NCBI RefSeq assembly: GCF_000935025.1
Contig: NZ_CP010836.1
Span: forward strand, 62,001-126,000
Length of the DNA stretch: 64,000 bases
Reading direction: 5' to 3'
DNA from: Sphingomonas hengshuiensis
GTDB taxonomy: Bacteria; Pseudomonadota; Alphaproteobacteria; Sphingomonadales; Sphingomonadaceae
Each line of letters begins with the position of its first letter. Positions within the stretch are counted from its first letter, which is position 1. The notes under the pieces were generated by a model. That model was not told the DNA's origin, did no database searches, and was given only the letters and a program-made list of their open reading frames with translations. A program made the translations under genes and the position numbers. Positions 49,283 through 50,580 of this stretch are shown here, piece after piece.

Positions 49283-49465
49283 GGGCGGGGGCGTCCGTTA
49301 TCTGCTGCTGCTCCCCTGCGCAGGCAGGGCAATCGCATATGGATGCGTATGCTCCCCTATTACCGCCGTCATGCTGAACTTGTTTCAGCATCCATCGCGC
49401 AACAAGCGACGGAAATGCGCGCTGAGGGTTGGATGCTGAAACAAGTTCAGCGACTGTCTTTGGCG

Positions 49466-50392
49466 TCAAGCGGCGAGCCATGGGGATTTGCTCCTCAGGA
49501 TGGCGTTTGCGAAGGTGAGCAGGCGGCGGGCGAGGGCGATCAGGGCGACCTTTTTGGGTTTTCCGCTGGCGATGAGGCGCTGATAGAGCGCCTGGAGCAC
49601 GGGATTGTAGCGACTGGCGACGAGTGCGGCCATGAAGAGGGCCGAGCGGACGGTGGGGCGTCCTCCGCCGATCATGGCCTTTCCGCGCCATTGGCCGGAC
49701 TGGCGGGTCCAGGGCGCGACGCCGGCGAGCGCGCTGATCTGGCGGCGTCCGAGCTGGCCGAGTTCGGGCAGTTCGGCAAGCAGCGTGCGGGCGGTGGTCG
49801 GGCCGACGCCTGGGATCGAGGTCAGCAGCGCCTCCTGATCGCGCCACAAGGGCGAGCCCCGCACGGCCTCGTCGATCGTCCGTTCAAGGTCGGACAGTTC
49901 CTTTTGCAGCGCAGCCAGCAGGCGCTCGATGCTTTTGCGCAGCGGCAGAAGCGTTGCGCGCCGCAGCCGCTGGCGCTCGCTCACCATCATCGCGATGATC
50001 TGCCGGCGCCGCGCCACCAGGTCGGCCAGCGCGCGCGTCTCGGTATCCGCCAGTGCGCGCGGCGGCGGGCGCGTTGCCTCGACAAAGCGCGCAATCACCG
50101 CGGCATCGATCGGGTCGGTCTTGGCGCGCTTGCCCAATGCGCGCGCAAAATGGCGGATCTGCGCGGGATTGATCACCGCCACCGGCAAGCCTGCTGCCCC
50201 CAGCGCGGCAGCCACCACCGTCTCATAGCCCCCGGTCGCCTCCAGCCCGATGCACAACGGGGCCGATACGCCCAGTCGCGCGACCAGCGCCTCCAGACCC
50301 TCGGCATCGCGCCCGACCGTCCAGGCCTCGCCCGCGGGCGAGACATGGACGTCCAGGCGATCCTTCGAAACATCGATACCCACATACGTCAT
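49466..50392 (-). CDS. IS110-family transposase/recombinase
   Basis: 308 aa from the ATG at 50392; GGGAG lies nine bases before it. RuvC-like domain with the DEDD set: Asp7 in [13 protein letters not shown], Glu51 in [10 protein letters not shown], Asp93 and Asp96 in [14 protein letters not shown] coiled-coil linker (about 110-180) and the Tnp domain follow: [40 protein letters not shown] with the candidate catalytic Ser232, then [14 protein letters not shown]. All catalytic residues are present and the frame is intact, so it may be active. Confidence 0.95.
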
Positions 50393-50580
50393 GGTCATCG
50401 TCTCCCGGGCTTGCGCAATCGGGCTTGCCTTGCAGAGGCCCAAGCGACTGTTCGGGTTCAATGACCTTACAGCGGGCTGTTCACGCTGAACTACGGGCTC
50501 TGCAACCCTTGCATGATTCGAACTTCCCGCCGAAGCCGCACCGCATTCTTCATGCAATGCTGCAGTTGGCAAGTTACAAG
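50393..50580 (-). ncRNA. Candidate bridge RNA of the IS110 element
   Basis: The 188-base noncoding 5' end lies where IS621-type elements encode their bridge RNA. On the minus strand, ACAGTCGCTTG (50451-50441) is identical to the junction made by joining the element's right and left ends across CT. AGTTCAGC (50492-50485) is complementary to the target GCTGAACT. GGGTT (50508-50504) can pair with AACCC (50458-50454) to close a loop holding the target match, and GTCAT at 50465-50461 repeats the left target half. Target loop then donor loop is the IS621 order. Confidence 0.6.

Follow-up and report, generated by a model that had tools for sequence, protein, structure and literature searches.

The element, its copies and its insertion point

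The window analysed here, a stretch of 64,000 nucleotides of the Sphingomonas hengshuiensis genome, contains an intact insertion sequence of the IS110 group on the minus strand at 49451..50580. The element is 1130 bp long, with one copy of its CT core counted in. Read in its own direction, it begins with the core and left end CTTGTAA (50574..50580, minus strand), which forms the right donor, and finishes with the right end ACAGTCG (49451..49457, minus strand), the left donor. It is flanked on the same strand by the left target TCATG (50581..50585) and by the right target CT+GAACT (49444..49450), which includes the second copy of the core. The transposase gene (49466..50398, minus strand) is preceded by a left noncoding end of 182 bases up to the first ATG, and 15 bases follow the stop codon on its 3′ side. 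The element does not fit the IS1111 group, in which the guide RNA lies in the right end and the subterminal inverted repeats are long: the right end has just these 15 bases, and the matches of the RNA model described below fall in the left end.

Ten full copies were found in the genome, all starting with CTTGTAACTTG and finishing with ACAGTCG. Their ends and flanks confirm the boundaries 49451-50580 given in the original prediction, in which the nine further copies were overlooked. Seven of the ten are identical, and the other three have 21-23 differences from the window copy. Because seven copies are identical, the element has probably been active recently.

All ten copies are inserted at the same point, CCGTCATG | CTGAACTTG[TG]TTCAGCATCC, and in one orientation relative to the repeat. 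The CT core is present without further duplication, and the flanks of the ten copies rebuild an intact repeat with one CT. The original prediction had named copies at targets lacking the CTGAAC region as evidence against it; every one of the ten copies found sits at a CTGAAC target. The uninterrupted form of the target can be seen in the window at 47096..47188, as a REP-like pair of inverted half-repeats with 43-nt arms, within which lies the intact repeat (47160-47188) first used to set the boundaries.

The right flanks of all ten copies have a REP pair in common, over about 85 bases. Some REP pairs sit in a larger composite repeat, best common to the window copy (L007) and to L009 and L010, which share about 55-60 bases on the left and 140 on the right. 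Over the ten copies, similarity stops within about 60 bases on the left and about 150 on the right, and since no flank sequence is common farther out the copies occupy ten distinct loci. Beside the insertion sites, GCAATCGCATATGGA occurs at 49329-49343 and 50612-50626, inverted, on both sides of the interrupted REP pair, and ATATGGA or ATATGAA lies to the left of five more insertion sites (L003, L005, L008, L009 and L010).

Abundance of the target in the host

A 26-base half-repeat, GTCATGCTGAACTTGTTTCAGCATCC, is found 45 times in the genome, and its reversed-pattern control 0 times. The 12-base site TCATGCTGAACT occurs uninterrupted 60 times in the host and 0, 0, 0, 1, 0, 2 and 0 times in the other seven genomes or records searched. 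Sixty free and ten occupied sites make about 70 places, of which a seventh are used. Two near-miss sequences serve as controls within the same genome. Neither the related sequence GGATGCTGAAACA, at the other end of each half-repeat, nor TCRTCCTGACG, with 47 copies in the genome, has received any of the ten insertions. This TCRTCCTGACG (TCATCCTGACG/TCGTCCTGACG) is a second abundant short repeat of the genome and resembles the target of the relative in host G963. A search of the genome with PF01797 for an intact RAYT transposase, as a possible agent of the spread of the REPs, found none; there was one short Y1_Tnp match with an internal stop (L116).

Transposase

Translation gives 310 aa from the first in-frame ATG (50398) and 308 aa from an ATG at 50392. 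The noncoding 5′ end described in the original prediction is present; its length of 188 bases runs to the second of these ATGs, the first lying at 50398. The protein matches PF01548 (DEDD_Tnp_IS110) with 89.8 bits against a cut-off of 29, PF02371 (Transposase_20) with 69.6 bits against 21.3, and the NCBIfam model NF033542, 'IS110 family RNA-guided transposase', with 232 bits against 140. Its sequence matches in the PDB are ISCro4 (9t56, the best, E 1.4e-37) and IS621 (8wt6). The catalytic D, E, D and D and the Ser-Gly align to ISCro4, the roles of these residues being those described in PMC11208158.

With at least 7876 related proteins at E 1e-80 among the 8000 candidates sharing most words, the transposase family is common. 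The window element itself is rare in the genomes sampled: the best relative outside its own genome has 44% identity in 201 genomes of the genus and 65%, over a partial match, in 397 genomes of the family (both sampled, E 1e-60). The genomes searched were drawn from larger groups, and in each of them few candidates were scored. Short metagenomic contigs encode proteins up to 96% identical to the window transposase.

The 5.2-Mb genome holds 34 IS110-family transposase matches. In some of these types the longer noncoding part seems to lie 3′ of the gene, as in IS1111. A second IS110-group type is present in five copies (L031-L035), with left end CTTGTATC and, in four of the five, right end ATAGTCG. 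By eye, a right guide GTCGGAG in this type fits CTCCGAC, and its four readable right targets, CTCCGGC, CTCCGTC, CTTCGAC and CTCCGAC, are matched at 6, 6, 6 and 7 of 7 positions respectively.

Structure of the 5′ noncoding end

Folding of the 188-base 5′ part yields a 5′ stem-loop (50535..50563, minus strand, from the single-sequence fold) followed by two hairpins, one for the target and one for the donor, each with an internal loop. The target loop and then the donor loop, expected from IS621, are thus found in that order. The fold is modest in stability (z -2.2; 4 of 200 shuffles as stable). A hairpin at the place of the 5′ stem-loop folds in 29 of 29 distinct 5′ ends, a count made without a shuffled control.

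The RNAalifold consensus of the 29 distinct 5′ ends has 28 pairs, 15 of them with two-sided changes. Consensus pairing is kept in 96.8% of cells, none of 500 shuffles is as good, and sliding the partners lowers the figure to 33-50%. The conserved 5′ structure on which the original prediction depended is thus supported by compensatory changes.

A covariance model was built from the alignment of relatives and run on 24 sources, of which eight had no match. The window copy matches this model (R1) with 137 bits at 50390..50544 on the minus strand, over the consensus structure of the predicted bridge RNA, and is identical to a sequence used in building it. In its own genome the model gives 15 matches (from the best 150 of 4739 candidates scored), ten to this element and five to the other IS110-group type. 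The latter five, all the copies of that type, lie outside the building set and score E 5e-8 to 5e-7. Further matches outside the set are L060 (3e-35), a near-identical Bradyrhizobium copy, L075 (9e-12), and L061, L062, L064, L067, L073, L074 and L087 (9e-7 to 8e-4). An IS621 copy gives a weak match over its whole length, at E 0.0027; as an antisense match in L060 appears at 0.009 in the same search, noise begins near that value. Over 49300-50700 every match to an Rfam family stayed below the gathering score; of these 12 sub-threshold matches five, including the best, fall on the REP palindrome.

The first ATG (50398; stretch 50393-50400) is paired: it belongs to the 3′ arm of the stem at the base of the donor hairpin. 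This stretch pairs at 88.8% over the alignment, with two-sided changes in the two outermost pairs only, a count equalled in 104 of 500 shuffles; the start codon itself constrains the inner pairs. A fold that forms the guides would hide the translation start, and in ISPpu9 a 5′-UTR structure limiting translation has been reported (PMC8450116). On the modelled structure, guide folding and transposase translation may exclude each other.

Guide sequences of the window copy

Four guides can be read in the two loops, in the IS621 arrangement. On the 5′ side of the target loop lies the left target guide TCATGC (50511..50516, minus strand), which has the letters of the target TCATG plus the C of the core and covaries in relatives; its second core base is mismatched, A for T. 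On the 3′ side lies the right target guide AGTTCAG (50486..50492, minus strand), complementary to CT+GAACT and matching at +1 to +5 in relatives. The donor loop contains the left donor guide ACAGTCGC (50444..50451, minus strand), equal to the element right end plus the C of the core, and the right donor guide TTGCGCAAG (50410..50418, minus strand). The latter, TTG-CG-CAAG, was paired by eye with CTTGTAA, discontinuously: first CAAG and, after two skipped bases, GTT, which includes one G-T pair. The original prediction contained the right target guide and the left donor guide; TCATGC and TTGCGCAAG were overlooked there.

The two matches first reported fared differently in detail. For the donor, ACAGTCGCTTG does equal the joined element ends over 11 bases, and such a match is indeed very unlikely by chance, being reached in 2 of 2000 approximate dinucleotide shuffles; only about eight of these bases are kept as guide in relatives. 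The relatives keep ACAGTCGC, and the next two bases vary (TT, GA, CG, CT, CA, TC), so that the trailing TTG is probably incidental and the guide is about eight bases long. In L113 and L114 the donor guide is ACAGCCGC, and the element end has changed along with it, to ACAGCCG. For the target, the 8-base match AGTTCAGC is present. By itself it does not exceed chance expectation: in 201 of 2000 approximate dinucleotide shuffles, eight bases match one or other strand of the 28-base target region, and another 8-base match exists between the noncoding end and the outer flank of the target. A target guide is for that reason not acceptable from the window alone, and it is covariation in relatives that makes the match significant.

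An alternative assignment, in which the right target guide comes 5′ and GGTCATTG is the left guide, was dropped, because GGTCATTG makes up a stem of the donor hairpin and because both the fold and the relatives have TCATGC and AGTTCAG facing each other across a single internal loop. At 50481-50492 the DNA of the right target guide reads TCACGCTGAACT on the plus strand, one mismatch from the 12-bp target. By its sequence this is a possible self-target, and it is unoccupied in the ten copies.

Covariation of guides and targets

Fifty-four loci, comprising the element's own copies and relatives, were examined, and both ends and both flanks could be read in 47. The statistics cover 46 insertions and 20 guide types; L052 was left out, as its contig ends at the core. 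Dropped before counting were L073, L074, L075 and L087 (40-45% identity), whose two ends were not both found by patterns, L060 and L086, where the stretch lacks the left end, and L061, where the left end as extracted is short and the right target, judged by eye, misfits the guide. The reading of guides also leaves out ten of 21 relative loci, L062-L071, whose identity is 32-43%. From plasmid records, 13 of 1013 protein matches were taken by identity, skipping near-duplicates; this sample is without 950 Klebsiella and Escherichia records (49-50% identity among the matches listed). Six left and five right non-core positions were scored, with two left registers allowed in real and permuted pairings alike.

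Left guides match their own targets at 4.28 of 6 positions on average and the targets of other elements at 2.76; for right guides the values are 4.61 of 5 and 2.01. In neither case do any of 100,000 permutations reach the observed value, a count that, given the kinship among the 20 guide types, is not a strict probability. When element types are compared in 190 pairs, differences between right guides follow differences between right targets with a rho of 0.84. How similar two targets are is hardly predicted by the identity of the transposases (rho -0.12). The p-values of both coefficients were set aside, since the 190 pairs are not independent. In L101 and L106 the proteins are 78% identical, and four right-guide and five right-target positions differ. 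Related IS copies thus show the covariation of guide and target that had been proposed as a check.

Three classes illustrate this. The window element has TCATG|CTGAACT with guides TCATGC and AGTTCAG, the Bradyrhizobium type (target TCATCCTGAGG) has TCATC|CTGAGG with TCATCC and CCTCAG, and the G963 relative has TCGTC|CTGACG with TCGTCC and CGTCAG. Weak matches were kept in the statistics, on the left L114 (1 of 6) and L100, L105, L107 and L112 (3 of 6), and on the right L085 (3 of 5). The left target guide is loose, four types needing a register shift of one base.

Position by position, the right guide matches its own target at +1 to +5 with frequencies of 1.00, 0.95, 0.99, 0.90 and 0.77 (0.30-0.53 for the targets of others) and no longer exceeds background at +6. 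For the left guide, positions -1 to -5 give 0.95, 0.80, 0.83, 0.78 and 0.58 (others 0.24-0.76), and -6 is near background (0.35 versus 0.28); -1 is little informative, as the background there is 0.76. The core is paired in the right guide of all 20 types, and the two bases of the left guide that lie at the core are CT in 12 of them and not in the other 8. The footprint of the group is about 5-2-5.

For the Bradyrhizobium and G867 guides, the corresponding site has 81 and 152 occurrences in their respective hosts, one in the host of the window and one to five in each of the remaining five. The site of the G963 guide, TCRTCCTGACG, was rejected as a host-specific repeat: it occurs 50 times in G963, yet 47 times in the host of the window and 6-33 times in the six others. 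Host-specific sites are thus seen in two of the three guide classes tested.

Alternative explanations

Had the window been the only evidence, the transposase might be thought to read the REP-like site as a protein-DNA motif, with the matches in the noncoding end coincidental or regulatory; an 8-base target match is common by chance (201 of 2000 shuffles), and a single target in all ten copies would by itself fit. The relatives make this very improbable. Their targets change with the guides (rho 0.84) and hardly with the protein (rho -0.12), the match between guides and their own targets exceeds that in every one of 100,000 permutations, and L101 and L106 contrast in the same way. Still less probable, in our estimate, is that the 5′ structure is mainly a hairpin for translational control of the transposase messenger, as in ISPpu9, and contains no guide. 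The position of the first ATG (50398) in the basal stem of the donor-loop hairpin and the ISPpu9 precedent (PMC8450116) both favour such control, but a control hairpin does not explain why loop bases covary with insertion sites and with element ends, and regulatory and guide roles are compatible.

The copies could also have spread by homologous recombination between REP repeats, the target being inherited and not chosen. Seven identical copies, the REP pair in all ten right flanks and the longer composite in L007, L009 and L010 are in keeping with this, and exchange between repeats is conceivable for these copies because their flanks share repeats. Farther out, however, the flanks have no common sequence, and the three copies with 21-23 differences from the window copy still sit at the same site. 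Relatives in three other genomes, moreover, have several separate insertions whose target matches their own guide. We regard this as the least probable of the three.

Proposed mechanism

We conclude that this is an IS110-group element that moves by bridge-RNA-guided recombination, with a probability of about 0.94 on the sequence evidence. The anatomy, the ten identical targets, the conserved RNA structure and the covariation of guide and target are observed; transcription, circle formation and catalysis would follow by analogy with the family. The 5′ noncoding end would be transcribed into an RNA some 150-180 nt long, in which a 5′ stem-loop precedes one loop that binds the target and another that binds the donor. 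In the target loop, the 5′ guide TCATGC would pair with the bottom strand to the left of the core, and the 3′ guide AGTTCAG with the top strand over the core and the bases to its right; the site recognised would then be TCATG-CT-GAACT, 12 bp. The donor loop would pair likewise with ACAGTCG-CT-TGTAA, the joined ends of the excised circle. Strand exchange at the CT core by the DEDD/serine recombinase would then insert the circle without duplication beyond the core. The original proposal of a natural RNA-guided recombinase programmed for a REP-like repeat of its host is thus upheld by the ten targets, the conserved structure and the covariation.

By eye, the element has TTGAC in its right end and TGTAAC at its left end. 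In the excised circle, TTGAC could act as the -35 box of a promoter to which the left end would add the remainder. Most of the relatives listed, L099 and L061 excepted, likewise show by eye a TTGAC in the right end, where it overlaps the stop codon of the transposase.

Relation to known elements

Guidance of IS110 and IS1111 elements by bridge RNA or seekRNA was published in 2024 (PMC11208160, PMC11187229, PMC11208158), and REP targeting by several insertion sequences in 2006 (PMC1525189). As bridge RNAs, CT cores and REP targets are already published for the IS110 family, the original prediction overrated how special the element is. Searches of the literature for IS110 together with Sphingomonas and for follow-up work gave no title on this element among the matches listed, in a coverage that most subscription papers fall outside.

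The element resembles IS621 of Escherichia coli in its DEDD/serine recombinase, left-end RNA, four guides in order, CT core and REP target (PMC11208160). The right donor guide is split in both, nine bases on seven donor bases, and is described as discontinuous in IS621 (PMC11208160); the left donor guide of the IS621 copy compared starts with ACAGT, like the one in the window. Unlike IS621, the window element has a footprint of about 5-2-5 with a 7-base right guide, and its transposase is 36% identical to that of the IS621 copy. For IS621 the published description gives guides of eight or nine bases on the left and four to seven on the right and an 11-bp target, and it already mentions longer right guides in some orthologues (PMC11208160). 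Given these ranges and orthologues, the 5-2-5 footprint is variation within a known kind.

ISCro4 (structure 9t56), likened by protein sequence alone, aligns at the four acidic residues and Ser-Gly and is otherwise distant in sequence. In the ISEc21 seekRNA system, of the IS110 type, the guide RNA likewise comes from the upstream noncoding region, and the order of target matches is likewise opposite to that in IS1111; unlike the window element, ISEc21 has its target in IS3-family transposase genes and not in REPs (PMC11187229). ISPpu9, ISPpu10, ISPa11, ISRm19 and ISRm22 also have all their genome copies at one point of a host REP (PMC1525189), but in other hosts and other REP families; they were described before guides were known and are compared by description. 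The IS110-like ISMex17 and ISMno7 have transposases 59% and 53% identical, and their guides can be read in the same loops (L111, L113), although guides and targets differ from those of the window element.

Biological meaning

The picture of how the IS110 family works is unchanged by this element. The natural evidence on its choice of target is unusually complete: the sequence gives all four guides of the bridge-RNA system, the same site in a single genome has received ten insertions, near-miss repeats act as internal controls, and in relatives guides and targets have changed together. From the relatives comes a small data set on which bases of the target guides natural elements of this group use, about five to either side of the CT, and the element itself is a candidate recombinase directed at a host repeat.

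A bolder reading, to which we give an even chance, is that of an alphaproteobacterial IS110 clade that hunts REPs, the guide of each lineage having been retuned to an abundant palindromic repeat of its current host, with a symmetric 5-2-5 frame versus the left-heavy one of IS621. If this is so, the guides would record natural retargeting after host transfer, and the repeats would serve as intergenic landing pads.
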